From positions 1 to 64,000 of the forward strand of contig JABWBH010000002.1 in assembly GCA_013360585.1 (NCBI GenBank): 64,000 nt of DNA, written 5' to 3'. Each line of letters opens with the position of its first letter. Position 1 is the first letter of the stretch. The translations under genes and the position numbers were made by a program. This stretch comes from Phycisphaerae bacterium (GTDB lineage Bacteria > Planctomycetota > Phycisphaerae > UBA1845). The notes beneath the pieces are model-generated. The model ran no database searches. It was not told the DNA's origin and was given only the letters and a program-made list of their open reading frames with translations. Of this stretch, positions 39,896 to 62,535 are shown piece after piece.

Positions 39896-40352
39896 CATCC
39901 GGACTGCGCGAATTGGCGCGATCAGCGGGCGGGATTCCGCGCCGCTGCGCCGCGGAGAGCCTACCTCAGGCTGCAACGCCGGGGAAGCGGCGCTCAGCAT
40001 CGAACCGCGTTGACGCAGTACGCGGATCCGGCGGCGGCTGGGAGGGAAATCTCTGGAGCGTTCGAGACGGCATCACCGAAAGAAATACAAAAAGGTGGAA
40101 CGCCGCTTGCCCCGGAAGGCCGGTGCGCGGGAGGGTCGGGGGGAAAGTCTTCCCGCGGAAGAAGCACTCACGAGGGTGGGTTGTCGGGCAAACCCCCACG
40201 GTGGATCGCGCGGGCAAGTCCCTGCCGGATGCGGCAGGGGTATTTCTCATTTCAGGGGTGGACAGTCGGCGGACCCGACGGATAACATGCGGCGGTCGAT
40301 CGACGCCAGCGCGCGCGGCACGGATGGGAAAAGCGGTTGGAGGAGACGACTC
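39896..40352. other. 457-nt divergent intergenic region before bc complex 1
   Basis: No gene seen. It should carry the promoter of the Rieske operon; a TATTTC near 40241 is the best -10-like string, without a good -35. Confidence 0.4.
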
Positions 40353-40856
40353 ATGCATGAATGTCCCATCGAGAACGGACCGCGGCGTCGCGGCGTTCTC
40401 GCCACGGTGCTGATGATCGGCGGGCTTGTCGCCGGTTACGGCACGGGGTTGTGGAATTTTCTTCAGTACCTCGTCCCGCTGCGTCGTCAGCCGCGGACGG
40501 ATCTTTTCGTCGGCACCCTGGCGGAACTGCCGGTCGGAAGCAGCCGGACCGTCGTCGATCCGCAAGGCCAGAAGATCGCGGTGACGCGGACGGCGGGCGC
40601 GGCGGGCGATCCCGCGTCCGGGTTCAAGGCCCTCTCCAGCATCTGCCCGCACCTGGGGTGCAACGTTCACTGGGATGGAGGGCGCTCGCAGTTCATCTGC
40701 CCCTGTCACAACGGCGTGTTCGACGCCAACGGCACGGCGATCTCCGGACCTCCGGCAGCGGAAGGCAAGAACCTGAAAGAATTTCCGGTGAAAGTGGATG
40801 CGCGGAACGGTTGGGTGTTCGTCGAGGTCACTGTGAGGGGCCGATATGGCGTCTGA
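40353..40856 (+). CDS. Rieske iron-sulfur protein of bc complex 1
   Basis: 167 residues. One N-terminal membrane anchor (LATVLMIGGLVAGYGTGLWNFL) is followed by the Rieske domain. The 2Fe-2S ligands are C98 and H100 in CPHLGC and C116 and H119 in CPCHNG, with C103 and C118 as the disulfide pair. The second motif is CPCHNG where CPCHGS is usual. It would pass electrons from quinol at the Qo site of the adjacent cytochrome b. SD GGAGGAGA comes just before ATG 40353. Its stop overlaps the cytochrome b start (40846-40856), so the two are translated together. Confidence 0.95.
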   Translation: MHECPIENGPRRRGVLATVLMIGGLVAGYGTGLWNFLQYLVPLRRQPRTDLFVGTLAELPVGSSRTVVDPQGQKIAVTRTAGAAGDPASGFKALSSICPHLGCNVHWDGGRSQFICPCHNGVFDANGTAISGPPAAEGKNLKEFPVKVDARNGWVFVEVTVRGRYGV

Positions 40857-42309
40857 ACCTGCGGGACATGCGGCGGGCGCGGGTCGCGGCGGGCGTTTGT
40901 GGCAGATGCTTCCGCTGGACTGGGGCAAGGTCCAGGAGGTCACGAATGAGCCGGTTCCGGGACACATCAAGCGCTGGTGGTTCGCGCTGGGGGGGACGCC
41001 GGCGTACCTGTTCCTGATCCAGTTGACGACGGGGATTCTGCTGTCGTTCTACTACGTTCCGTCGCCGGAGCACGCCTGGGAGAGCGTGCGGGCGATCACG
41101 GAGGCGATCCCCTACGGCTGGTTCCTGCGCGGGATTCACAAGTGGGCGGCGAACCTGATGATCATCACGGTGCTGCTGCACATGTGCCGGGTGTATTTCT
41201 CCTGCGCGTTCCGTCATCCGCGGCAGTTGAACTGGGTGATTGGGTGCGGGCTGCTGATGTGTACGCTGACGCTGGGGTTCACCGGGTACTCGCTGGTGTA
41301 CGAGCAGCTTTCGTACTGGGGCATCACGGTGGCGACGGAGCTGACGGCGGTGATTCCGGTGGTCGGACCTCTGGCGGCGAACTTCATGCGCGGCGGCGAA
41401 GCGGTGACGCCGAACACGCTGACGCGCATGTTCAACCTTCACGTGGGGATTCTTCCGGTGACGGTCGTGCTGCTGATCGGGCTGCACGTGACGATGATCC
41501 GTCTGCACGGCGTGTCGGAGCTTTCGTTCGCGGTTGCGGCGAAGCCGAAGGACGCGCGGCCGGCGGACCGGCTCTTCGGGGTGAAGCTGGTGGCGCTGGC
41601 GGCGGCGCTGGCGGGCGTGGGCGCGCTGGGGATGGCGGTGCGGGCGCCGGCGCCGCTGAACGTCATCGCGCATGAGCTGACGCCGGAGGGAAGCCGGATC
41701 GTCTGGGTGATGGTCGGCGTGGTGTGCGCGACGGCGGCGGTGCTGCTGCATCGCGGACATCTTTACGGGCTGATGATCTGGCTGGTGGTGGCGCTCTTGG
41801 CGCTGGGGAAGCTGGTGTTCGACCTGGTGAACGACGAGGCGGCGCATCAGGCGGGCTGGCTGGCGGCGTCCGTCGTGCTCGCCCTGACCGTCGTATACGG
41901 CGTCGCGCGTCACGGAAGGTTCAACGAAGGCAAGGGCGAGGACAAGCCCTTCAATTTCTTTCCGGATCATATTCTGACCGAGATTCTCATCGGAACGTTG
42001 TTGTTGTTTCTGCTGGCGCTGCTGACGCTGGTGTTCCCTCCTCACATGGGCGAGAAGGCGAATCCGCTTCAGACGCCGGATCACATCAAGCCGGAGTGGT
42101 ATTTCTTCTTCCAGTTCCGGCTTCTGAAGCTGATGGGTTTGAACACCGCGGTGCTGCTGACGGGCGTGATGTTCGGACTGCTGGTGTTGTGGCCTTGGGT
42201 GGACTCGGTGCTGGAGAAGCTGGCGCCGAAGAAGGATGTGGGCGTTTATGTGGGGATCGCGGCGTTCACCTGCTTCCTGGTGCTGACGGTGTGGGAGGCG
42301 ATGGTCTGA
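40846..42309 (+). CDS. Cytochrome b, one-piece (b6 plus subunit IV) type
   Basis: 487 residues. Two heme-ligating helices carry H-x13-H (GIHKWAANLMIITVLLHM) and H-x14-H (LHVGILPVTVVLLIGLH), the second spacing being that of b6-type proteins. P-E-W-Y is present at residues 416-419 (DHIKPEWYFFF). The N-terminal four-helix b6 part is joined to a subunit-IV part by an extra helical segment (residues about 250-360) with four or more hydrophobic helices. No Cys lies at the b6 Cys35 position, so heme c_n is not expected. Its function is quinol oxidation, coupled through the Rieske protein to an octaheme cytochrome. Confidence 0.95.
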   Translation: MASEPAGHAAGAGRGGRLWQMLPLDWGKVQEVTNEPVPGHIKRWWFALGGTPAYLFLIQLTTGILLSFYYVPSPEHAWESVRAITEAIPYGWFLRGIHKWAANLMIITVLLHMCRVYFSCAFRHPRQLNWVIGCGLLMCTLTLGFTGYSLVYEQLSYWGITVATELTAVIPVVGPLAANFMRGGEAVTPNTLTRMFNLHVGILPVTVVLLIGLHVTMIRLHGVSELSFAVAAKPKDARPADRLFGVKLVALAAALAGVGALGMAVRAPAPLNVIAHELTPEGSRIVWVMVGVVCATAAVLLHRGHLYGLMIWLVVALLALGKLVFDLVNDEAAHQAGWLAASVVLALTVVYGVARHGRFNEGKGEDKPFNFFPDHILTEILIGTLLLFLLALLTLVFPPHMGEKANPLQTPDHIKPEWYFFFQFRLLKLMGLNTAVLLTGVMFGLLVLWPWVDSVLEKLAPKKDVGVYVGIAAFTCFLVLTVWEAMV

Positions 42310-42365
42310 TCGAGGAACCGGGCCTGCGCGGCGCGCGGGCGGAGACCGAGTGAAGGAGACGGACG

Positions 42366-43967
42366 GTGTCGCTGAATACGAAGAAGATCATCGTGTTTGT
42401 GCTGGGGATCGGGTTGTGCATCGCGCTCATCATGGTGGCGGAGATGGAGTCGCGCAAGCACCTGGCGCGGACGGAGATGCCGCTGGCGACGTTATTGTCG
42501 ATGACGCCGGAGACGAGCCGCGAATGCGTCGAGTGTCATGAGCAGCAGACGCCGGGCCTGGTGTCGCACTGGAAGGGCAGCACGCACGCGGAGAAAGGCG
42601 TGGCGTGCGTCGAGTGCCACGTGGCCGAGAAGGGCGACGTGGACGGGTTCGACCACTACGGTCAGCACATCGCCACGGTGGTGACGCCGCGGGACTGCGC
42701 GCGCTGCCACCCGAAGGAGGCGGACGAATTCCAGCACAGTCATCACGCGAAAGGCGGCAACATTCTGGCGTCGCTGGACAATTTCCTGGCCGAGACCGTC
42801 GAGGGGCATCGCGGGTTCTTCAACCCGCACTCGCCCACGCCGGGGCGTCCGGAGATCGCCGACGTCAACGGGTTCGCCAGCGCGTTTCTCGGCTGTCATC
42901 AATGCCACGGCAGCAAGGTCGGGTTCCTGACGGCGGACGGCGGAAAGGTCACGGTGGACGACCTCAAGCCCGGTCCGGACGGTCGACCGACAAACCTCGC
43001 GGCGATGGCCAACGTCGTGCGCGATCAGGAGGGCAAGCCGAAGTACCACCCGGGGACGTGGCCGAACACGGGGATCGGACGCATCAACCTCGACGGATCG
43101 CTGGGATCGTGCTCGGCGTGCCACAGCCGGCACGACTTCTCACCGCGGCGCGCGCGGCAGCCGGAGAACTGCGGCAAGTGTCATCTCGGTCCGGACCACC
43201 CGCAGAAGGAGATTTATGAGGAATCGAAGCACGGCGTGGCGTACCGCGACCTGCGCGACCAGATGAACCTCGATGCAAAAACGTGGGTGCTCGGCAAAGA
43301 TTACTCCGCGGCTCCGACCTGCGCGACCTGTCATATGTCCGCGCACAGCAAGGGCGCGCCGGTGACGCACAATCCCGGTCAGCGCATCTCGTGGACGAAC
43401 CGCCCGCCGATCAGCCTGGCGATGGACACCGACGCCAACAACTCGGTGGTGAAGGAGACCGACCCCGAGAAGCGGGCGGCGCTGGTCGTGGACACGGCGA
43501 TGGACAAGCGCAACCGGATGAAGGAGGTCTGCCACCACTGTCACACGCCCGACTATGTCAACGGGTTTTACAAACAATACGACGACCTCGTCGTGCTCTT
43601 CAATGAGAAATTCGCCAAGCCGGGGACGAAGATCATCCAGGCGCTGCGCGATCAGGGTCTGATCACGAAGATCGAGTTCGATGAGGAGATCGAGTGGTCG
43701 TGGTACTACCTCTGGCATCATGAGGGGCGCCGGGCGCGGCACGGCGCGTCGATGATGGCGCCGGATTACACGCACTGGCACGGCATGTATGAGGTGGCGG
43801 AGCGCTTCTACATGGAGGTCATTCCTCAGGCGAAGGAGATCGCCGAGCACGCGATCACCGAAGGCAAGGAGGCCGAGGGACGGGCGGTGTTGGCGGTCAT
43901 CGACGAAATCCTCGCCCGCCCGGAGCATCAGTGGCAGGCGTCGACGAAGAACGAGCTGAAAAAGTAG
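42366..43967 (+). CDS. Octaheme cytochrome c of the hydroxylamine oxidoreductase family
   Basis: 533 residues with eight CxxCH sites, at residues 54, 81, 111, 177, 249, 269, 319 and 389. A GTG start at 42366 has AAGGAG 7 nt upstream. An N-terminal helix (IIVFVLGIGLCIALIMV) anchors it on the outer face. HAO-family marks are CHQCH, CSACHSRHDFS, CGKCHLGPDHPQ (the D-H pair 277-278 next to the active heme) and PDYTHWHGMYEV at 467-478, the C-terminal region that holds the crosslinking Tyr in true HAO. Operon position after Rieske and cytochrome b suggests it takes electrons from, or gives them to, the bc module. The substrate (hydroxylamine, nitrite, hydrazine, or only electron transfer) is unproven. 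Confidence 0.9.
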   Translation: MSLNTKKIIVFVLGIGLCIALIMVAEMESRKHLARTEMPLATLLSMTPETSRECVECHEQQTPGLVSHWKGSTHAEKGVACVECHVAEKGDVDGFDHYGQHIATVVTPRDCARCHPKEADEFQHSHHAKGGNILASLDNFLAETVEGHRGFFNPHSPTPGRPEIADVNGFASAFLGCHQCHGSKVGFLTADGGKVTVDDLKPGPDGRPTNLAAMANVVRDQEGKPKYHPGTWPNTGIGRINLDGSLGSCSACHSRHDFSPRRARQPENCGKCHLGPDHPQKEIYEESKHGVAYRDLRDQMNLDAKTWVLGKDYSAAPTCATCHMSAHSKGAPVTHNPGQRISWTNRPPISLAMDTDANNSVVKETDPEKRAALVVDTAMDKRNRMKEVCHHCHTPDYVNGFYKQYDDLVVLFNEKFAKPGTKIIQALRDQGLITKIEFDEEIEWSWYYLWHHEGRRARHGASMMAPDYTHWHGMYEVAERFYMEVIPQAKEIAEHAITEGKEAEGRAVLAVIDEILARPEHQWQASTKNELKK

Positions 43968-51386: not shown

Positions 51387-54300
51387 TCATTCGTCCTCGA
51401 TGAACTCCTCGACCGGTTCATCCTCCTCGATGAACTCCCCGCCTTCGCCCGACGGCGCCGCGGCGACGTTCGGGTCGATCGCCGTGTGATTGCGCAGGCC
51501 CGCGGCGTAAAGGTAATCCAGCAGGAGTGCGATCTGCTCTTCGGCGGTACGGCCGAACTTCGCCTCCAGCTCCTCGCGGTTCTCGAAGTTGGCGAAGGCG
51601 CTCTGCATGTTCGGCCAAAGCTGCGGCATCTTCGTGCCCGGCTGAATGACTGCCGGCGCCTTCACCCACGCGCGGACCCAGTCCTGCTGGAGTCGGCGGA
51701 ACGTGAGGTTGAGGTTCGGCGCAGACGGGTTCGGGTTCGCTCCCGGCACGGTGGAGTCGCCGAGCACGTGGCACTTGAGACACCCCAGCGTCAGGAGCAT
51801 CTCCTCGCCCTTCTGGAAGCGATCCGGCGCCACCTGCGTCGGCGGAACATCGGCGAAGGGATACCGCGCATTGTACAGGTCGCGCAGCAGGGACGTCTCC
51901 GTGTGCACCTTGTGATAGTTCGCCGCCAGCTCCTCCGGCGAGTTCTCGTCGCGGTCAAGCTGGAACGGCATCATCAGGCGGTTCGCCACGGCGTAACGCC
52001 CCAGGAAACCGGTGGGCTTGGCGAGGTGATCCTGCGCGAACCAGTCCGCCCCCGCTTGCGCCGCCGCGTCCCCGTTGGTGGCGCCTTCGGCCTTTTTCGC
52101 TTCCTCCGCGATGTAGCCGTCCACCAGGCGCAGACGCTGATTGAGCTGGCGCGCCTCCTCGTTCCCCAGGCCTGAGAAGTGCTCGACGATCGCCCGGGAA
52201 TCATCCCCGGTGATGTGAAAGCTCGGCATCCGCACCGTCAGCCACGGACGCAGCATCTCGACGTTGTTGAGGAACGCGAACAACCACGCCGGCTGCGTCT
52301 TCGCCCCCTGACCCCGCAGCGCCGGCGGCGCGTTCACCTCGTCGAAGCGCTCGCGCCCGCCCTCCTTCACCCGGAAGTACTGCTGCACGACGGGGAAGTT
52401 GTCCTCGATCTGGTGACAGCCGACGCAGTTGAACCGGCGCGTCAGGTCGCGTCCCTCGCCGATCCGGTCTCGCGGATCATTCTCGTAATTGACCACCAGC
52501 GACGACGACACGCGCGGCGACGTCCGCCCCATCAGATAGGTCACCAGCGCCTCCGCCTCATCCTCGGTGAAGAAGAAGTTGGGCATCTTCAGCTTGTCGA
52601 GCGGCTTCTTCTCCTTGAGACGGTCCCACATCCGCGGGTTGAGCATCTTGTGATACGCGAACGCCGCGTGATCGTGCGTCACGTCCTGCGGCGGGTTGAC
52701 GCCGTGATGCAACTCGACGAGGTCCGGACGATGCGGCGGGTAAATGTGCTCAAAAAGCTCATGATTCTCCTCGCGGTGCTGGATGTCATGCCCCGCGTGT
52801 CCGAAGAAGGCGAAGTCGAGCTGCGTGATCGGCTTTTGCGCCCAGACCGTCAGCTCCGTTCCGGGACGCACGGCGTTCTCGAATCCGGGGATCAGGTGGC
52901 AGGCGTAGCAGCCGTAATGCGAGATCGCCTTGTTGCCCACGTAGAGCAGGCGCTTCTCGGCGAGGCTCATCTTCGCCGTCTTGCTCTTGAACCCTTCCGC
53001 CGACGGGGAATTCGCGACGAAGTCCTCGATCATCTTCGTCAACTCGCCGTCCTTGTCCTCCATCACCGCCCGCGATCGCGCCGCCGACCGCTGCGCCGAC
53101 AGCAGGTCGAACATCAGCCGGTCCACCTCCGCGTCCCGCTTCGCGTCATCCGGGAACCGCTCCTTGCCGAACGCGTCCTTGTTCGCGTCCAGCTTCAGGC
53201 CCGCCAGGTACGTCGCCACGTCCAGCGCCTCCTGCTCCGTCAGGCGCAGGCTCGGCATCCGCGTGTCCGAGTGATACCCCGAAGGGTTCCGCAGCCACGC
53301 GTACATCCACTCCACCGTCGTCTTGCTCCCCATCGCGGAAAGCTCGGGCGCGACGCGGGTGAACACCGGCGCGTTGTACGACTTGCGCGGGTCGAACCGC
53401 ACCGACTCGGGATCGAAGAGCGCCTCGGTGTCCCCGGGGAAGCGGTCCATCGCGTAGCGCACGCGCTCGACGTAGTTCATCGCGTCGAAGTTCGCCTTCG
53501 CCTGCTCGGGCGTCTCGCCCTTCTCGCGGCGGTCGCGGACGATCCATGCCTCGCCGAATTCGGAGAGGTTTCCGTGGCACGCCAGACACCCGACCGAGGT
53601 GAAGAGCTTGCGCCCGGATTCGGCGTCGCCCGTCAGACCCTCCGGAGGTCTTTCCGCGCCCTCCCACGGTTGGGACGCGGTGTAAAGATAATGCGTGATC
53701 GCCTGCACCTCCGTCTGCGTGCGGAGCACCGGGTCCGGATCCCAGTCGCTTTCGCTGCCCGGTCCGTTGTTCTCCTGCATGAAGAAATGCGGCATCCACG
53801 TCGAGGGGCGGAACGCTCGCGGATCCCAGATCCACTGCGTCGTGAACTCGGGGTCGAGCTTGCTCTCGATGTGCGCCAGGCTCGGGCCCACGCGCGGCGA
53901 GTCCTCCAGACCTTTCACGGAGTGACAATTGATGCACCCGACGCGCGTGAACAGATCGTACCCCTTGCGGATCTTCTCGCCCTGCGGCTCGCCGTTGAAG
54001 GCGGGGATCGAGCTGGGCTGCTGGTGGCACTTCATGCACGACCCCTCGGTGTAGCGGGTCGGGAGCATGTGCCGGTCCCAGTAGTGGTTGATCAGCTCAA
54101 ACGTCGCCGTCGGCACCCCCGTCACGTTGACGTAGTACTTCTCCTTCCACTCCTCCTGCTGCTTGTGTCCGGTCGGTCGGTGCGCGGCGAGGATGAACGT
54201 CGTCTCCTGCGGGTTGCCCTCGTGACAGACCGTGCAGCCCATCGTTTTCATCGGGTGCGGGGAGTCGATCTGCACAAAGAGATCCAGGTTCGGGTGGGCG

Positions 54301-55385
54301 AGGATCGCCCGGCTCAACTCGACGGCGTTCTTGTCCTCCTCCTTCAAATACTGGTTGATCGTCCCCAGCAGGGCGTCGAAATACGTGCGCTGCTGGGCGT
54401 CGGTCAACCGGTCCCAGTGCTTCATCACGTCGCCGGGTTCGACCTTCGGCGCGTCCTCGCCCGGAAGCTCCGGCGGCGCGGGCATCGGCAGCGCGGGTCT
54501 GCCGAGCTTCGCCCGTTGCTCGTTGATCGAAGGGATGCCCTTCTCGAACCTCGCCGCCAGCGATTCCATCGTGAAGTCGCGGTTGTCGATCGCGATGTGG
54601 CACGTTACGCACCGGTCCGTCGTGTAACTCTGAAGATAGTTGAGTTCCTGGCGCACGTCCGGCAGGACGAGTTGCTTGATCTCGTGGCGCCCCGGCGTGT
54701 TCTTCGGCGCGGCGAAGTCGAACATCGGCGCGTTGAAAAGCGTGCGGCGCAGCTTTCCACCGTACTGCTCCGCCTTCGCCTCGGCCTCCGCCGCCTGGCG
54801 CACCAGCGCGTCGTACGCCTTCTGCGCCTCGACCTCGGGCGCCCGCAGCGCCTTGATCCGCCGGGTGAGGTCCGCCATCGCGTCCTCCTGCTCCTGCTTG
54901 GTCTTTCCGAACGTCGCGATCAGCTCGCGCTCGTGCTCCTTGCGGTGAAGCAGTTCGAGCGTGTGCGGGTCGTCCGGACCGTGCAGGGCGAGCGCGTGCT
55001 CGTACGCCTGAAGCGTCACGTCATGAACGTTGGCGACGGGACCGTATTGAAGCTTCGTCAGCGCGTACTTCGCCTTCAGCGTCTCGAGTTCCTCCGTCAT
55101 GCGGTCGATATCGGCCTGCGACGCGCGGACCTGCTCGCGGGCGGATTCCAGGCGGGCCTGAGCCTCGCGCAGCTTCGCCTGCTCCGACTCGCGCTGCGTG
55201 TAAAGGTAATCCAGATGCGCCAGCACGCCCTGCACGGTCATGTAGTCGTTCTGAAACCCGCGCCACTGCAGGTCGTAGTCGATCACCGCGAACCACAGAA
55301 TCGACGCCAGCAGCAGCCCCGAGCTGACCGCGAAGAGGACGTTCAGGCGGTCCATCGACCGCATCGTTTTTTCTGAAACCGGCAT
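51387..55385 (-). CDS. Giant membrane-anchored octaheme cytochrome c with coiled coil
   Basis: 1332 residues from ATG 55385 (GAGG upstream). The N-terminus is a membrane helix (RLNVLFAVSSGLLLASILWF), followed by a coiled coil at about residues 55-205. Eight CxxCH heme sites start at 259, 384, 450, 484, 600, 826, 987 and 1202. They are spaced unusually, with several cytochrome-c-like domains (KLFTSVGCLACH, GEEMLLTLGCLKCH) separated by long stretches. MP-x-W/L motifs supply distal Met ligands (TWMPHF, MPNFFF, MPSFH). The C-terminus is acidic. Following the cytochrome b subunits, it probably takes electrons from the Rieske domain. Confidence 0.9.
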   Translation of the reverse strand: MPVSEKTMRSMDRLNVLFAVSSGLLLASILWFAVIDYDLQWRGFQNDYMTVQGVLAHLDYLYTQRESEQAKLREAQARLESAREQVRASQADIDRMTEELETLKAKYALTKLQYGPVANVHDVTLQAYEHALALHGPDDPHTLELLHRKEHERELIATFGKTKQEQEDAMADLTRRIKALRAPEVEAQKAYDALVRQAAEAEAKAEQYGGKLRRTLFNAPMFDFAAPKNTPGRHEIKQLVLPDVRQELNYLQSYTTDRCVTCHIAIDNRDFTMESLAARFEKGIPSINEQRAKLGRPALPMPAPPELPGEDAPKVEPGDVMKHWDRLTDAQQRTYFDALLGTINQYLKEEDKNAVELSRAILAHPNLDLFVQIDSPHPMKTMGCTVCHEGNPQETTFILAAHRPTGHKQQEEWKEKYYVNVTGVPTATFELINHYWDRHMLPTRYTEGSCMKCHQQPSSIPAFNGEPQGEKIRKGYDLFTRVGCINCHSVKGLEDSPRVGPSLAHIESKLDPEFTTQWIWDPRAFRPSTWMPHFFMQENNGPGSESDWDPDPVLRTQTEVQAITHYLYTASQPWEGAERPPEGLTGDAESGRKLFTSVGCLACHGNLSEFGEAWIVRDRREKGETPEQAKANFDAMNYVERVRYAMDRFPGDTEALFDPESVRFDPRKSYNAPVFTRVAPELSAMGSKTTVEWMYAWLRNPSGYHSDTRMPSLRLTEQEALDVATYLAGLKLDANKDAFGKERFPDDAKRDAEVDRLMFDLLSAQRSAARSRAVMEDKDGELTKMIEDFVANSPSAEGFKSKTAKMSLAEKRLLYVGNKAISHYGCYACHLIPGFENAVRPGTELTVWAQKPITQLDFAFFGHAGHDIQHREENHELFEHIYPPHRPDLVELHHGVNPPQDVTHDHAAFAYHKMLNPRMWDRLKEKKPLDKLKMPNFFFTEDEAEALVTYLMGRTSPRVSSSLVVNYENDPRDRIGEGRDLTRRFNCVGCHQIEDNFPVVQQYFRVKEGGRERFDEVNAPPALRGQGAKTQPAWLFAFLNNVEMLRPWLTVRMPSFHITGDDSRAIVEHFSGLGNEEARQLNQRLRLVDGYIAEEAKKAEGATNGDAAAQAGADWFAQDHLAKPTGFLGRYAVANRLMMPFQLDRDENSPEELAANYHKVHTETSLLRDLYNARYPFADVPPTQVAPDRFQKGEEMLLTLGCLKCHVLGDSTVPGANPNPSAPNLNLTFRRLQQDWVRAWVKAPAVIQPGTKMPQLWPNMQSAFANFENREELEAKFGRTAEEQIALLLDYLYAAGLRNHTAIDPNVAAAPSGEGGEFIEEDEPVEEFIEDE

Positions 55386-55486
55386 GTGCGCCTCTATCTG
55401 CTCCGCGACCGCGACGGCGAGAGCTTTCACGCCCGAGCCGCTCCCCCGCCCCGCGATCGCCCGCCGCCTCACTGGCGGCGCGACCT

Positions 55487-56590
55487 CTAGATGTTGAAGA
55501 AAAACTCCGTGATCGCCACGAAGTACTGAAGGTTGATCGTCCACCGGAATGCCATCTTCAGCGGAACCAGGAACATCCACAGCAGCAACTGCACCGCGAT
55601 GACGTAACGGATGAACCCGATCTGACGGTAGATCTTCCGCATCACCGTCCACGCCAGCAGGAACGGAAGACCCGTGAACCAGAACCCGATGAACGCCAGA
55701 CCCGGCGCCTCGCGCACCAGCCAGTGCCCCGGCAGCCCCCGCCCCAGCGCCTTGATCCAGAAAATATCCCGGAACTGAATGTTCAGCAGCGCCGCCAGCT
55801 TGTGCGCATCCCAGAACTCATACGGACCGAAGAAGATCCAGTTCGGACCCCGAAGGAACGTCCCGAAGACGATCAGCACCACCCACAGCACGACCCACCC
55901 GAACATGTACGTCGTGATGACGAACCACCGCTCCTTGAACGTGTAATACCCGTTTCCGCGCGGGTTCTTGTCGATGTAAGGCAGCGCCACCAGCCCCAGA
56001 ATAATCAGCCCCGGCAGCAGCACCCCCGCGATCCACGGGTCGAAGTAGACCAGCAGCTCCTGCAACCCGAGGAAATACCACGGCGCCTTCGCCGGGTTCG
56101 GTGCCACCGACGGATCCGCCGGTTGCTCCAGCGGCGCACGAAGGTAGATCGCCCAGACGATCAGAAACGCCGTGCAGAGAATCAGCGCGATGAACTCCGT
56201 GTACACCAGGTCCGGCCAGACCAGCACCTTGTCGTCCGCCCCGGCCTCCAGCAGCGGTTCGCCTTTCTCCAGCCGCTCATCGTTGATCGCCGCCTGACGG
56301 AACGCCAGCCAGGTGAAGAACCCGACCAGCAGCATCATGATCGAGATGGGGACGTTGTCCGGTTTCGCGATGATGAGGAAAAAGTTCGGATCGAGGGCGC
56401 TGAGGGCGTAGAAGAGCACCGCCCCTCCGCCGAAGATCGCCGCCACGACCGGCTTCGTCCAGAACCGATACCCGATCAGAAACACCCCCAGCGCCACGCA
56501 ACTGAGTACGAAAAACGGCGCCGGCTCGCAGATCACGTTGATCGCGTGCTTGATCCGATCAATTCCTGATTCAGCTAGCAGGTAATCCAT
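55487..56590 (-). CDS. Cytochrome b subunit-IV-like protein of bc complex 2
   Basis: 367 residues, at least eight hydrophobic helices. Residues about 120-220 match the subunit IV/C-terminal half of cytochrome b: DLVYTEFIALILCTAFLIVWAIYL, then NPAKAPWYFLGLQELLVYFDPW. The Qo motif is A169-P-W-Y, where most enzymes have P-E-W-Y. Residues 1-105 add two or three helices before this, and the C-terminus adds others (LPFLLAWTVMRK). APWY is known from other menaquinol-type complexes. The ATG is 56590. It is followed by the octaheme cytochrome gene. Confidence 0.85.
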   Translation of the reverse strand: MDYLLAESGIDRIKHAINVICEPAPFFVLSCVALGVFLIGYRFWTKPVVAAIFGGGAVLFYALSALDPNFFLIIAKPDNVPISIMMLLVGFFTWLAFRQAAINDERLEKGEPLLEAGADDKVLVWPDLVYTEFIALILCTAFLIVWAIYLRAPLEQPADPSVAPNPAKAPWYFLGLQELLVYFDPWIAGVLLPGLIILGLVALPYIDKNPRGNGYYTFKERWFVITTYMFGWVVLWVVLIVFGTFLRGPNWIFFGPYEFWDAHKLAALLNIQFRDIFWIKALGRGLPGHWLVREAPGLAFIGFWFTGLPFLLAWTVMRKIYRQIGFIRYVIAVQLLLWMFLVPLKMAFRWTINLQYFVAITEFFFNI

Positions 56591-56676
56591 CACGTCGCGT
56601 CTCGGTTGCTACAGGTTTCGGGTACTCGAATGCTCGAGGTTTCAGATTCTGCGGCCTGGGTATCTCAACGTTTCAA

Positions 56677-56842: not shown

Positions 56843-57613
56843 TCACAACGGCCCGCTGATCCCGCCGTCTTTCCGGATGCGCCAGAAATGCACCGCGATC
56901 AGCACCGTCACCACCACCGGAATGAACACGCAATGCAGCACGTAAAACCGCAGCAGCGCGTTGGGCCCGACGAACGTCCCCGCCAGCAACTGAAACCGCG
57001 CGTCCGACCCCGCATGAATCAGCGGCACCCCGTCGATCACCAGGAACGACGCCCCCGGACCTTCATGCCCCGCCAGCGGCGTCGCCCGCGCCATGTTCGA
57101 CCCCACCGTGATCGCCCACATCGCCAACTGGTCCCACGGCAGCAGATACCCCGTGAACGACAGCAGCATCGTCAGCACCAGCAGAATCACCCCCACCGTC
57201 CAGTTGAACTCCCGCGGCGGCTTGTAACTGCCCGTCAGGAACACGCGCAGCATGTGCAGCCAGATCGCGATGATCATCGCGTGCGCCGCCCACCGGTGAA
57301 TCTCGCGCAGCAAGCCCATCGACACCACGCCGGACCGCATCGCCTGAATGTCGTTGTACGCGTACTCCACCACCGGGCGGTAGTAGAACATCAGCAGCAC
57401 GCCCGTGACGATCTCAACCAGAAACAGGAAAAACGTCAGCCCCCCCATGCACCACGTGAATGACAGGCGGATACCGCTCTTGCGCACCGCCACCGGGTGC
57501 AGGTGAAGGAACACGTTCGACAGAACCGCCATCGCCCGCGTCCGACGGTCGCGCGGAATCCCGTGACGGAAAATGCTGTTCCAGACCTGCCCTTCACGTA
57601 TCCACTTGATCAT
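56843..57613 (-). CDS. Cytochrome b6-like subunit of bc complex 2
   Basis: 256 residues, four helices. Heme ligands are H-x13-H (EIHRWAAHAMIIAIWLHM) and H-x14-H (LHCVFIPVVVTVLIAVH). A cysteine, C55 in FTWCMGGLTF, sits where cytochrome b6 has Cys35, the covalent ligand of heme c_n; FYYRPVVEYAY is also b6-like. The protein would carry hemes b_L and b_H and possibly a third, c-type heme on the inner side. The ATG is 57613. It is encoded between the Fd-Rieske and subunit-IV genes, so the complex is of the split b6f type. Confidence 0.9.
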   Translation of the reverse strand: MIKWIREGQVWNSIFRHGIPRDRRTRAMAVLSNVFLHLHPVAVRKSGIRLSFTWCMGGLTFFLFLVEIVTGVLLMFYYRPVVEYAYNDIQAMRSGVVSMGLLREIHRWAAHAMIIAIWLHMLRVFLTGSYKPPREFNWTVGVILLVLTMLLSFTGYLLPWDQLAMWAITVGSNMARATPLAGHEGPGASFLVIDGVPLIHAGSDARFQLLAGTFVGPNALLRFYVLHCVFIPVVVTVLIAVHFWRIRKDGGISGPL

Positions 57614-57720
57614 CACGTCGCCCTTGTGCCGCGCTTCTCATCTCTCCGGCGGGTGGAGCCCGCTCAACGTTCTTCTCGCCCGTCGCCGGCGGCTTATTGT
57701 GTACTGCCTGTCGCCTTTCC

Positions 57721-58821
57721 CTACACCGCCAGGTGGCTCTCCGGCATCTCCCACTGCCCCAGCTCATGCTGGAACTTCTTGCTCTTGTCCACCACCACGA
57801 TGCCGTCCTCCACCGTCACGCGGAAGCGCTCCAGCGGACGCGGCGTCGGGCCCTGGAAGTTAATCCCCGTGAAGTAATACCCGCTGCCGTGGCACGGGCA
57901 CAGAAACTTGCGGTCGTTCGGCAGCCAGTTCGGAATGCATCCCAAGTGCGTGCAGATGATGTTCAACGCCGCGATCCGGTCCTCCTCGCGGATCATCCAG
58001 ATGCCCTTCGGCTTGTAATCCTCGTTCACCTCGCCGGGTTTCATCTCGAGAAACTGCGACAGCGGGCCGACGCGGACACGCGGGTCCGGTTCTTCCAGCG
58101 CCCGCGGCATCGAGAAGCTCAATCCCGCCGGACCGATCACGATGCCCGTCGCCGCCGCAAACGCCGCCCACCCCCCGACCATCGCCACCGTTCCGAACGT
58201 AATCGCCTCGCGCCGCGTCGGATCTTTCTTCGTCTTCTGCGCCGCCAGCAGGGTCTTGGCGAAACGGGCGTCCGGGGGAAGGTTGTCCGGATCGGTCCGC
58301 AGCGGATCGGCGCTGATGACCCCGCCGCGGGCCTTCGAGATGCCCGCCTGCCCCCCACGCGCCGTCGCCGCCCGCAGCAGCGCCTGCACATTCGGATCGC
58401 CGATGTCCGCCGGAGCGACCGGAGCATGAGAGCGCGCCGCCGACGCTTCCGCCGCAACCGCCGCTGCCGCGGGTTTCGCAGCGGGTGCCGCCTTCGGCGC
58501 CGCCGGTTCCGTCGAGACGCTTGCCCCGGCTCCCGCAGCCGCCGGAGCGCTCTCCCCCTCACCGAAAATCTTCGCCGCGTCCTCGTCGCTGACCTCGACC
58601 GCCGCCGTCTCGTACTTGATGACGTCGACCGGACATTCCTGCGCCGCCTCGATGATCGTCTTCGTCAGCGGCTTCGTGAACGCCGCCGCCAGCGCCGCCG
58701 GGCGGATGATGCACGTGTCGTCCGTGACCTCGAAAACCTCGGGGCACGTATTCTCGCACGCATCGCAGACTATGCACCCGGGGTCGATCCAGACTTTCGT
58801 CACCAGCTCTTTCGTTGGCAC
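57721..58821 (-). CDS. Ferredoxin-Rieske fusion protein
   Basis: 366 residues from a GTG (58821) with GGAAGG just upstream. Residues 1-75 are a ferredoxin domain: C16, C19, C22 in CIVCDAC and C63 in ECP bind a [4Fe-4S] cluster, and C26 is extra, as in Desulfovibrio gigas ferredoxin. Residues about 88-140 are an Ala/Pro-rich linker. A membrane helix lies at about 207-230 (TVAMVGGWAAFAAATGIVIG), followed by a Rieske domain with C290-T-H292-L-G-C295 and C308-P-C310-H311. The ferredoxin end is cytosolic if the Rieske domain is outside. The fusion may link the quinol site to a cytosolic low-potential donor. Confidence 0.9.
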   Translation of the reverse strand: MPTKELVTKVWIDPGCIVCDACENTCPEVFEVTDDTCIIRPAALAAAFTKPLTKTIIEAAQECPVDVIKYETAAVEVSDEDAAKIFGEGESAPAAAGAGASVSTEPAAPKAAPAAKPAAAAVAAEASAARSHAPVAPADIGDPNVQALLRAATARGGQAGISKARGGVISADPLRTDPDNLPPDARFAKTLLAAQKTKKDPTRREAITFGTVAMVGGWAAFAAATGIVIGPAGLSFSMPRALEEPDPRVRVGPLSQFLEMKPGEVNEDYKPKGIWMIREEDRIAALNIICTHLGCIPNWLPNDRKFLCPCHGSGYYFTGINFQGPTPRPLERFRVTVEDGIVVVDKSKKFQHELGQWEMPESHLAV

Positions 58822-58855
58822 GTCGCACCTTCCGTTTCATGACGGGGCGGCGATT

Positions 58856-58901: not shown

Positions 58902-60068
58902 TCACCCGCCGCTGCCGGCCGGACCTGTCCGTTCCGCCCCGCCCCGCCCCGCCAGCGCTTTCCGCACGCGGTCGCGCACCTGCAACGAAACGTCTCCTTC
59001 CAACTCCGCGATCATTGTCCAGACCGTCTCATCCTCCAGGTGCGCCGCCGCCTCGATCGACGCACACAAGGTCATCTCGATCCGAGGCTGCGACATCGCC
59101 AAAGCCGCCGGCGCCCCGCCCCCTCCCTCGGTCCGGACATGCGCACGCTCCTCCCAGTATTTCCGGTCCAGCATGTCCTTCAGCACCGGAACGGCGCCGT
59201 CGTCCCCCAGCCGCGCCAACGTCAGCGCCGCGTTCCAACGCAGCTCCCGGTCCTCCTCCGCGGCGTCGCAGATCTCCTTCAACCGCCGCCGCACGGACGC
59301 ATCCGCCGGGTCCGCCAGGAAAGACAGCACATACGCCGCCACCGTCCGCACCGTCGCGTTCTCATCCTCCAGCGCCGCCGCAACGTCCTTCGCCGTCTCC
59401 CGCGCTCCTTCCGTCCGATGCGCCGCGCCGAGACACTTCAGCGCCTCCCGACGAGTCTGCCACTGCGCCGCGCCAAGACAGCGCACCAGCGGGGCGATCG
59501 ACCCCGGACGCCCTGTGTGCGACAGCGCCGACATGAAAAAATGCAGCGGCTGAAGGTGATCGTCCGGCAGAGGCTCCGTCGCCTTCAGATCGCGATCCAC
59601 CAACCGGCCAAGCCGATCCACCACCGCGTCCAGGTCCGCCGCCGACATCGGGCTTTGACCCTGCTGCAGCCGGGCCGCCAGCTCCTTCGCCGCCTGCCAG
59701 ATCTCCTTGTCCTGCGGCATCATCGCCAGATCGAAAACCTTCCCGACCGGCTCGCGCTCCATCACCCCCAGCAGCTCCCCCACGCTGCGATCCTGCTCCG
59801 TCGTGATCGACCCGAATAACAGCACGACCAGCACCGCGCTGCCGATAATCATCACCACGATCAGCAGCGGAACGCCGAACAAACGCGCCAGAAGAGACAG
59901 ATTCATCGGCGGAGGGTTCTCAGAATCCGGCGATGTCGTCGCCGCGGAGTCATCCTCGCGCTGAGGGCGCGGCAACTTGGCCGGCGCACTTGACCCCTCG
60001 GAGCCTGCGGGTGCGAGTGATTCCCCATGTGTGACGGACGCGACAGAGTTGTCTTTTCCCAGGCTCAT
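58902..60068 (-). CDS. HEAT-repeat membrane protein
   Basis: 388 residues. The first ~50 residues are Ser/Glu/Pro-rich. A membrane helix (LLARLFGVPLLIVVMIIGSAVLVVLLFG) follows, then about 290 soluble residues made of HEAT-like helical pairs (SIAPLVRCLGAAQWQTRREALKCLGAA, RTVAAYVLSFLADPADASVRRRLKEIC, LRWNAALTLARLGDDGAVPVLKDML). It lies just before the Fd-Rieske gene (80 nt) on the same strand, so it probably belongs to the complex 2 operon as a scaffold or assembly factor. No catalytic motif. Confidence 0.75.
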   Translation of the reverse strand: MSLGKDNSVASVTHGESLAPAGSEGSSAPAKLPRPQREDDSAATTSPDSENPPPMNLSLLARLFGVPLLIVVMIIGSAVLVVLLFGSITTEQDRSVGELLGVMEREPVGKVFDLAMMPQDKEIWQAAKELAARLQQGQSPMSAADLDAVVDRLGRLVDRDLKATEPLPDDHLQPLHFFMSALSHTGRPGSIAPLVRCLGAAQWQTRREALKCLGAAHRTEGARETAKDVAAALEDENATVRTVAAYVLSFLADPADASVRRRLKEICDAAEEDRELRWNAALTLARLGDDGAVPVLKDMLDRKYWEERAHVRTEGGGGAPAALAMSQPRIEMTLCASIEAAAHLEDETVWTMIAELEGDVSLQVRDRVRKALAGRGGAERTGPAGSGG

Positions 60069-60657: not shown

Positions 60658-60686
60658 TTGACGGAGTCCGCAGGCGTCAGTATAAG
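60658..60686 (+). promoter_or_regulatory. Strong sigma-70 promoter, likely leaderless
   Basis: TTGACG (60658-60663), a 17-nt spacer, TATAAG (60681-60686). The expected start site, 6-7 nt on, falls on the ATG at 60693, and no Shine-Dalgarno is present. Confidence 0.6.
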
Positions 60687-60692
60687 ACCCGA

Positions 60693-61340
60693 ATGCGGGT
60701 GACGCTCTTCGTCACGGGGGTGTTCTTGTTGGCGGTGACCGGCGCCTGTCAGCGGCCCGTCGCCGACGCCGGGGCGGCCCGGACCACCGTTGGGGTGGAG
60801 TCGCCTGAATCCTACGACGCGCTCTGGTCGTCATTGCGTGAGGCGCTGCGCGACGAGGGCTTCCGGCTCGCGGTGGTGGACCGGTTCAACGGGCGCGTGA
60901 CGACGGAACCGGTGGTGTCGCAGCATTTCTTCGAGTTCTGGCGGCGCGACGTGGCGACGTCGGAGGACTGGTGGCAGGCGACGCTCAATCCGATCCGGCG
61001 GCGTGTCGAGGTGCTCCTGCCGCCGCCCCCCGACGGCACGCACGAAACCGAACTTCAGGTGACCGTGCATAAGGAGCGGTTGTCCTCGCCCGAGCGGCAG
61101 TTCAACGAAAGCGGGGCGTTCTTTCAGTTCTTCGGATATGCGCTACCGCCCGTCGCCGGGGGAGGGGAGCTGAAGCCGGAAACGGATCGCTGGATTCCGA
61201 TCGGCGAGGACGCGACGATGGCGCAGGTCTACCTCGCCGCGATTCTCAGGCGCGCCGCGGCAACGCCCGCGCCGCCCGCGGTGATGGCGGATCCGTCGAC
61301 GGATGGGGAACCAGCGGAACCTGCTGAGACCGGTCCGTGA
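60693..61340 (+). CDS. Probable lipoprotein of unknown function
   Basis: 215 residues from ATG 60693. The N-terminus has an export signal (VTLFVTGVFLLAVTGAC) with a cysteine at residue 19 that could be lipidated, although the lipobox (T-G-A-C) is weak. The mature part has FRLAVVDRFNGRVTTEPV, FFEFWRRDVATSEDWWQATLNPIRRRVEVLL and a Pro/Ala/Glu-rich tail. It resembles small periplasmic proteins of planctomycetes, but I do not know the family. The promoter suggests a leaderless message. Confidence 0.65.
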   Translation: MRVTLFVTGVFLLAVTGACQRPVADAGAARTTVGVESPESYDALWSSLREALRDEGFRLAVVDRFNGRVTTEPVVSQHFFEFWRRDVATSEDWWQATLNPIRRRVEVLLPPPPDGTHETELQVTVHKERLSSPERQFNESGAFFQFFGYALPPVAGGGELKPETDRWIPIGEDATMAQVYLAAILRRAAATPAPPAVMADPSTDGEPAEPAETGP

Positions 61341-61454
61341 GGGCGCGACGGGACCGTTCCCTCAGCCCCGTCCGAGGCGCGCAACGGTCGAACCGCGACG
61401 GGCGGTGGAACCGCGTTCACAAAGTGATCGAGGCGACATACAAGGCGAGCGAAC

Positions 61455-62186
61455 ATGAATGACAAACTGAGGAACCTGACGTGTGAGGCGGTGGGAACGT
61501 TTCTGCTGACCTTCATCGGCGCGGGTGCGATCCTGACGACGACATGGACGAAGGGCGATCCGGGGCTGGTCGGCATCGCGTTCGCCCACGGCATCGCCCT
61601 GGCGATCGCCGTGTCCGCGGCGATGAATCTCAGCGGCGGCCACATCAACCCCGCCGTCACCGTCAGCATGCTCGCCACCGGACGCATCAAGGCCGGCGAC
61701 GCCGTCGCGTACATCATTGCGCAATGCGGCGGCGCGACCATCGCGGGAGTGTTGCTCAACGTGATCTTCAAGGGCGTGGGAGCGTCGGGCGCCGGAGTGC
61801 TCGGGGCGGACGCCATCACCGCATGCCAGCTCGGGACACCCAACTTCGGCGCCGCCGTTCCCACCGGCATCGCCGTGCTGCTGGAGATCCTGATGACGTT
61901 CGTCCTTGTGTACACCGTCTTCGGTACCGCGGTGGACGGGCGGTCGCCGCGGATCGCCGGGTTCGGTATCGGGCTTTCGGTCGCCATCTGCATCCTGCTC
62001 GGCGGTCCGATCACGGGCGGGGCGATGAATCCCGCGCGGACGATCGGCACGCTGATCGGCGGAGGTTCCGCCACGTCGCATCTCTGGTCGCAGCACTGGG
62101 TGTACTGGGTCGGTCCGATCGCCGGAGGACTGCTCGCCGCGTTCCTTTATGACGGGTTGGTTCGGCCGAAGGCGAACAAGGGCTGA
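61455..62186 (+). CDS. Aquaporin / glycerol facilitator family channel
   Basis: 243 residues, six helices and two half-helices. The two NPA motifs are SGGHINPAVT and GGAMNPART, which form the pore. Further marks are an N-terminal CEAVGTFLLTFIGAGAI and TPNFGAAVPTGIAVLLEILMTFVLVYTVFGTAVD. The second NPA is followed by the pore arginine, and the residue set looks more like a water channel (AqpZ) than GlpF, but the selectivity is not certain. An SD (AAGGCGAG) precedes the ATG. Confidence 0.9.
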   Translation: MNDKLRNLTCEAVGTFLLTFIGAGAILTTTWTKGDPGLVGIAFAHGIALAIAVSAAMNLSGGHINPAVTVSMLATGRIKAGDAVAYIIAQCGGATIAGVLLNVIFKGVGASGAGVLGADAITACQLGTPNFGAAVPTGIAVLLEILMTFVLVYTVFGTAVDGRSPRIAGFGIGLSVAICILLGGPITGGAMNPARTIGTLIGGGSATSHLWSQHWVYWVGPIAGGLLAAFLYDGLVRPKANKG

Positions 62187-62210
62187 CGCAGGTCCGCCGG
62201 ATACCCGAAG

Positions 62211-62250
62211 TCGCTGCTGCACCGTCGAGCCGCACCCGAGCAGAAGCGGG
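62211..62250 (+). repeat. Partial copy of the stop-proximal repeat element
   Basis: TCGCTGCTGCACCGTCGAGCCGCACCCGAGCAGAAGCGGGC, matching the left half of 16219-16285. It is 24 nt after the stop of the aquaporin gene, in the same orientation. The right half is absent or decayed. Confidence 0.4.
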
Positions 62251-62535
62251 CGCTTCGCGCCGTCCGTGCGGATCCTGCAACATCGGGGAAGATGGCGTTA
62301 TCACACGTCGCTGCGGAGCGCCGTCTTGAACGCGGGCAGCGTGCTCGGCGCGCCCTCCTTGATCCGCCGCGGGCGGTAGTGGCGCCGGCGCGGCTGCCCC
62401 TCCGTCACGCAGGTCGAGCGTCCGGCATCCAAGAGGGTGGACGGCGCGAAACACCGCGTCGGGCGGGGCTTTCGCCCGGTTGACGTTGATTACCGGGCTT
62501 CCTAGACTCGAAACGACGACAACAAAGCCGCAACG
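62251..62535. other. Intergenic DNA before trxA
   Basis: No gene recognised. The trxA promoter must lie toward the right end, in the less GC-rich stretch 62480-62530. Confidence 0.4.

Follow-up and report, generated by a model that had tools for sequence, protein, structure and literature searches.

How low-potential cytosolic electrons get into or out of b6-type complexes at the negative face of the membrane is an open question, both in photosynthesis, where it concerns ferredoxin-dependent cyclic flow, and in anammox, where it concerns the formation of NAD(P)H. The question is raised again by a gene of a Phycisphaerae bacterium located in the 64,000-nucleotide stretch of DNA analyzed here (positions 1 to 64,000 of contig JABWBH010000002.1, hereafter the window). 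In the initial annotation, its product was read as one chain with a ferredoxin and a Rieske domain, the former inside the cell if the latter faces outward. We asked whether this gene is real, how its product is placed in the membrane, and which electron transfer it may serve.

The ferredoxin–Rieske fusion gene and its product

The gene and the parts of its product are as follows (basis of assignment in brackets):
57721..58821, minus strand: ferredoxin–Rieske fusion protein, 366 aa, GTG start (Pfam, alignment)
58594..58821, minus strand: ferredoxin domain, residues 1-76, Fer4_13 (Pfam, alignment, AlphaFold2, Foldseek, phmmer)
58216..58593, minus strand: cytosolic linker, residues 77-202 (alignment, AlphaFold2)
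58108..58215, minus strand: twin-arginine motif R203-R204 and single transmembrane helix, residues 203-238 (alignment, AlphaFold2, hydrophobicity)
57724..58107, minus strand: Rieske domain, residues 239-366 (Pfam, alignment, PDB comparison)

One open frame with a length of 371 codons (57724-58836, minus strand) encoded both domains without an internal stop, and the GTG start (58821) was preceded by GGAAGG at 58828-58833. Judged against the curated cut-offs (gathering scores), both Pfam matches were above threshold: Fer4_13 at residues 12-69 with 29.6 bits (cut-off 24.5) and Rieske at residues 268-333 with 29.2 bits (cut-off 20.3). The earliest in-frame ATG past the fusion start was residue 214, inside the transmembrane helix; thus, the Rieske part as a separate product would require a GTG or TTG start. 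Separate internal translation of this part was rejected, as there is no methionine from the start to the transmembrane helix. The fusion, counted as both domains in one frame, was found in 44 of the 114 genomes searched in the order, one of uncultured planctomycetes, with protein identities reaching down to 48%, which excludes an assembly or sequencing error. Joining of two genes by misassembly, frameshift, or a wrong start has a negligible probability: nothing was found in its favor, whereas 44 genomes of many genera showed the same architecture, 30 orthologues were aligned, independent named assemblies shared it at 92% and 77% identity, and the gene has its own ribosome-binding site and a stop-free frame. 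Thus, 57721-58821 is one real gene with both domains, as the initial annotation had it, and a start-codon or sequencing error splitting the domains was checked and ruled out.

Cysteines C16, C19, C22, and C63, previously named as [4Fe-4S] ligands, proved to be exactly placed and invariant in the 30 aligned orthologues; the additional motif cysteine C26 was not conserved across them. Together with the CxxCxxC motif, the remote CP, the score above the gathering value, and the matching fold, the invariant ligands assign the domain to Fer4_13. Modelled alone by AlphaFold2, it reached a pLDDT of 92.7. The top Foldseek matches were bacterial and archaeal ferredoxins, those of Thermotoga, Pyrococcus, and Desulfovibrio, with E about 0.006 and TM(target) 0.76-0.80, the E-values being modest and the fold small. 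A phmmer comparison of the domain with 1rof/1vjw gave E 1.8e-4. By its sequence and predicted fold, the fused domain is a genuine, strongly conserved single-[4Fe-4S] ferredoxin. It has the CxxCxxC...CP ligand pattern and the fold in common with the Fer4_13 ferredoxins of Thermotoga maritima and Pyrococcus furiosus and FdII of Desulfovibrio gigas; however, these are soluble proteins of about 60 residues, whereas the fused domain is part of a membrane subunit. Unlike them, it has an extra cysteine, Cys37 (window 58711-58713), which is invariant in the 30 orthologues and has no evident role.

A complete Rieske domain after the membrane helix, also part of the earlier reading, was borne out by the Pfam match and by both cluster motifs, CTHLGC (290-295) and CPCHGSG (308-314), invariant in the 30 orthologues; the CxHxGC and CxCHGS patterns correspond to C290-C295 and C308-S313. 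The closest solved relatives were Kuenenia Kustd1480 (9rk3) and Kuste4569, and the comparison with 9rk3 gave E 5.8e-32 and 44% identity in the structural alignment. The Rieske sequences of the Kuenenia genome in our set (G147) matched chains of 9rk3 and 9rk4.

The linker comprised 126 residues in the window protein and 106-132 in the 30 orthologues. It had been described as a low-complexity stretch of about 130 residues, which holds for residues about 91-138 (Ala/Pro-rich and disordered, AlphaFold2 pLDDT under 50) but not for the remainder, where helices were predicted at 143-154 and 183-197 and residues 142-157 are conserved. The first of these helices, DPxxxALLxAAxxRGG (residues 142-157, window 58351-58398), was nearly invariant in the 30 orthologues, the surrounding stretch having a mean pairwise identity of 64%; its role is not evident. 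A profile search with this helix gave no match above shuffled sequences outside the fused clade, and the sole match above them was a contig-cut member of that clade. Homology of the helix to the KSTADILAAARAQ repeats of other planctomycete Rieske proteins was rejected by the same search. Mean pairwise identity was 71% for the ferredoxin domain, 70% for the Rieske domain, and 31% for the disordered linker.

Only one hydrophobic segment was found in the fusion protein, at about residues 206-238, directly after R203-R204. Both arginines were invariant in the 30 orthologues and positive charge was in excess ahead of the helix, so that the protein has the single anchor with a Tat-type motif known from Rieske subunits. 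Since the single helix is preceded by the invariant twin arginine and positive charges, an N-in/C-out topology is predicted, with the ferredoxin domain very likely cytosolic and the Rieske domain outside. The examination of residues 200-235 for a Tat signal and topology thus agrees with the suggestion that the two clusters lie on opposite faces of the membrane. The AlphaFold2 model of the whole fusion protein (pTM 0.39) was of a single chain only and is uninformative on docking.

The operon and the distribution of the fusion

The conserved operon order was HEAT-repeat protein, ferredoxin–Rieske fusion, b6-type cytochrome b, extended subunit IV (SUIV), and octaheme cytochrome c. The genes other than the fusion are the following:
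58902..60068, minus strand: HEAT-repeat protein with hydrophobic segment, conserved directly upstream of the fusion
56843..57616, minus strand: b6-type cytochrome b, 257 aa (Pfam, PDB alignment to cytochrome b6)
55487..56593, minus strand: subunit IV-like protein, 368 aa (Pfam, alignment)
51387..55652, minus strand: octaheme c-type cytochrome with 8 CxxCH and an N-terminal hydrophobic segment, exact start uncertain

Both in the window and in orthologues, the fusion gene is directly upstream of those for b6 and SUIV, confirming the proposed link to a cytochrome b complex. The fusion protein is the Rieske subunit of a Rieske/cytochrome b complex of b6 type that includes an octaheme cytochrome c and probably oxidizes menaquinol; futalosine menaquinone genes were present in the genome. 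The same gene arrangement without the ferredoxin was found across the phylum.

The complex has the split into separate b6 and SUIV genes (Pfam) and the heme-cN cysteine in common with b6f. In contrast to b6f, which has cytochrome f and a PEWY motif, no cytochrome f was found, an octaheme cytochrome c occupying that place in the operon, and the quinol-site motif of subunit IV was APWY, as in every sequence of the clade where the motif was found.

The heme-cN cysteine of the window b6 (FTWCMGG) aligned with the b6 Cys35 position in PDB alignments, and a Glu of SUIV (LVYTEF) was at the heme-cN ligand position. The HLHP histidine and the RIRKDGG arginine were at the positions of an extra heme proposed for Kuenenia; in the Kuenenia models, Glu ligates heme cN, and His and Arg belong to the proposed extra heme at the dimer interface (PMC12954380). 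The cysteine was found in 66 of 70 relatives (Gly in L068, L069, L082, and L084) and in 32 of the 34 ferredoxin-associated complexes. A comparison of 49 SUIV sequences showed the Glu without exception, and neither the HLHP His nor the RIRK Arg was missing from any of the 70 b6 sequences, Kuenenia included. These residues were also conserved in most planctomycete complexes with neither a ferredoxin nor an NAD(P) module around the operon. Being common to ferredoxin-free complexes, they do not alone call for a ferredoxin; such conservation would permit electron exchange with it without proving such exchange.

Two of the sequences with Gly (L082 from G229 and L084 from G234, both of family f5) have a WGMGW motif and probably lack heme cN. 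Since one belongs to a compact fusion (G229) and the other to a complex with a separate ferredoxin (G234), heme cN is not obligatory for the ferredoxin partnership, and an obligatory route through it was rejected. The other two (L068 and L069, from G007 and G010 of f1) represent a divergent ferredoxin-free complex, the cytochrome b of which groups with anammox complexes.

The 44 fusions were distributed, by a count from the match table, among families f1 (26), f8 (15), and f2, f4, and f5 (one each). Named relatives with the fusion were Phycisphaerae/Planctomycetota metagenome assemblies; the scan of named genomes used strict peptide patterns and gave three loci. In 149 genomes from the whole phylum, no fusion was present among the matches listed, which comprised the Rieske part or a free ferredoxin only. 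The fusion is of neither local spread nor recent origin.

In the sister family f5, the ferredoxin was encoded in other ways. In three genomes (G049, G052, and G232), the Rieske protein was unfused, and the gene immediately downstream of SUIV encoded a free Fer4_13 ferredoxin; a fourth (G234), likewise with an unfused Rieske protein, had the free Fer4_13 ferredoxin about 360 bases after a b6–SUIV fusion. The compact fusion of G229, a 269-codon frame, had only about 25 residues between the ferredoxin and the twin arginine. All 34 ferredoxin-associated complexes formed one group in the cytochrome b tree (94/89). In the ferredoxin tree, weakly resolved owing to few columns and long branches, the separate operon ferredoxins were placed on another branch than the fused ones and may have been recruited independently; this leaves replacement of the gene or two separate origins of the partnership. 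In this lineage, ferredoxin and complex go together in fused and unfused form, and the f5 operons encoding ferredoxin separately or in a compact fusion support a role of ferredoxin in the complex. Thus, a single conserved complex of the planctomycetes goes with interchangeable modules on its negative side: none, an NAD(P) oxidoreductase, or a separate or fused ferredoxin.

Two tandem single-cluster ferredoxin genes were encoded in a further genome (G058, L066:6613-7338), with no Rieske or cytochrome b gene found in 14 kb around them; among free ferredoxins, the first of the two is one of the closest to the fused domain.

Possible electron routes on the negative side

For the Kuenenia complexes Kustd1480-1485 and Kuste4569-4574, bifurcated electrons were proposed to be pushed out to NAD(P)+, and the models place an FeS/FAD NAD(P) oxidoreductase with [4Fe-4S] clusters on the negative side, near enough to cN for electron tunnelling (PMC12954380). 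Its gene is located between b6 and SUIV in the Kuenenia operon. The initial annotation regarded the fusion as a new way of tying complex turnover to the cytosol; as a principle, however, this coupling has already been published as a proposal for the same class of complex (PMC12954380). What seems new is the covalent ferredoxin–Rieske chain, no description of which was found in the literature searched, the coverage being incomplete.

The window complex and Kuenenia Kustd1480-1485 share a b6 with the heme-cN Cys, the cN-ligand Glu, the HLHP His, and the RIRK Arg, as well as a SUIV-like subunit, a multiheme (hexa- or octaheme) cytochrome c, and a cytosolic FeS module. The latter, however, differs: in Kuenenia, an NAD(P) oxidoreductase that holds FAD and several FeS clusters forms a subunit of its own, and the Rieske protein bears no ferredoxin, whereas the window encodes a ferredoxin with one cluster as part of the Rieske chain itself. 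The possibility that the operon also encodes a cytosolic NAD(P) oxidoreductase was rejected, no homologue being found in 19 kb around it in eight genomes with the fusion. In the own genome, the best match to this protein was on another contig and fused to a domain of the POR family (2-oxoacid:ferredoxin oxidoreductases). A frame of 852 codons (L090, contig C5 of G000, about 60662-62488) combined a POR gamma domain with a GltD-like NAD(P) oxidoreductase and carried 4Fe-4S motifs.

We tentatively prefer to regard the fusion protein as part of a ferredoxin-linked enzyme, a single polypeptide with redox centers on both membrane faces, in which the tethered ferredoxin would exchange electrons with the negative-side hemes; the complex would then act as a dedicated ferredoxin:menaquinone reductase or, in a bolder reading, as a quinol-bifurcating ferredoxin reductase. 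The folded Rieske domain would be exported by the Tat system with the ferredoxin staying in the cytosol, and the linker of about 125 residues would tether the latter near bN, cN, and possibly the extra dimer-interface heme. A plausible route would link ferredoxin with the hemes on the negative side of cytochrome b, and exchange between the Rieske and ferredoxin clusters would not be needed. The ferredoxin could thereby serve as a built-in carrier between soluble cytosolic partners and cytochrome b, and the complex probably possesses in it a built-in plug for electron swaps with ferredoxin-based metabolism. That electrons pass between the ferredoxin domain and cytochrome b we place close to an even chance, on the lower side: the ferredoxin is as conserved as the Rieske domain with all ligands invariant; against this, the linker is long enough for it to act away from the complex. 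With a covalent tether fixing the ferredoxin partner, a single purified enzyme would be enough to measure the transfer.

Should such exchange take place, inward flow is the more likely direction, as it would be thermodynamically downhill and need no further subunit. Reduced ferredoxin, e.g., from 2-oxoacid:ferredoxin oxidoreductases (three POR-family genes were found in the genome), would pass electrons to the negative-side hemes and on to menaquinone at QN. This scheme resembles the proposal for ferredoxin-dependent cyclic flow in b6f, where heme cN was suggested to channel ferredoxin electrons to plastoquinone (PMC9342900). The route from ferredoxin over heme cN to quinone would be common to both; however, in b6f, a soluble, unfused ferredoxin/FNR docks transiently, whereas in the window complex the ferredoxin is covalently fused.

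Outward flow appears unlikely. It would start from bifurcation at QP, the low-potential electron passing over bP and bN (and perhaps the extra heme) to ferredoxin and further to acceptors such as NAD(P)+, while the high-potential electron, leaving via Rieske and the octaheme cytochrome, pays for it as in the Kuenenia proposal. Consistent with this, the homologous Kuenenia complex has the same b6, SUIV, and octaheme subunits, the putative His and Arg ligands of the extra heme are conserved, and heme cN is dispensable in two members, which fits a route by-passing QN. In the Rieske site of the window protein, CPCHGSGYY, both the Ser and the Tyr that the Kuenenia study associated with a high potential (PMC12954380) are present. 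However, Phe replaces the Tyr in many orthologues, and in the eight genomes mentioned above, neither the operon nor the 19 kb examined around it encode an NAD(P) oxidoreductase. Moreover, the potential of a typical [4Fe-4S] ferredoxin is lower than that of NAD(P), which would make the uphill step harder.

We also consider it improbable, to a similar degree, that the ferredoxin domain stands outside the electron path and acts in redox sensing, assembly, or docking, as one of several unrelated cytosolic N-terminal additions to planctomycete Rieske proteins. The other cytosolic N-terminal repeats of Rieske proteins from four loci (L039, L037, L054, and L081) argue for it, and a partner might bind to the conserved helix at 142-157 of the linker; however, neither the strict conservation of the four cluster ligands and the whole domain nor the presence of a ferredoxin gene of its own in the sister family's version of this operon is readily explained in this way.

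Still less credible is that the tether merely keeps a ferredoxin of general use close to the membrane, where it would serve other membrane enzymes and pass no electrons to cytochrome b. The long flexible linker (106-132 residues) would allow it, and a search of the own genome for Fer4_13 returned the fused domain as the only match, but the ferredoxin is repeatedly associated with the same cytochrome b operon, and the compact fusion of G229 leaves a tether of only about 25 residues.

Other Rieske proteins of the genome and the phylum

Four Rieske domains in total were encoded in the genome to which the window belongs. A second Rieske/cytochrome b operon was found in the window itself (40095-43964, plus strand), comprising a Rieske protein of 253 aa, a long cytochrome b of 487 aa, and a multihaem cytochrome c of 533 aa with Multi-haem_cyto and Cytochrome_C554 matches.

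In other planctomycetes with the same octaheme complex, the Rieske proteins had other repeats at the cytosolic N-terminus: two zinc-ribbon-like CxxC...CxxC units in L039:841-1959, pairs of FPxQV...SGQKMSW in L037:871-1959, and KSTADILAAARAQ repeats in L054:1147-2328 and L081:5165-6781. From these sequences, the N-terminus of Rieske proteins seems to serve generally as a site for modules.
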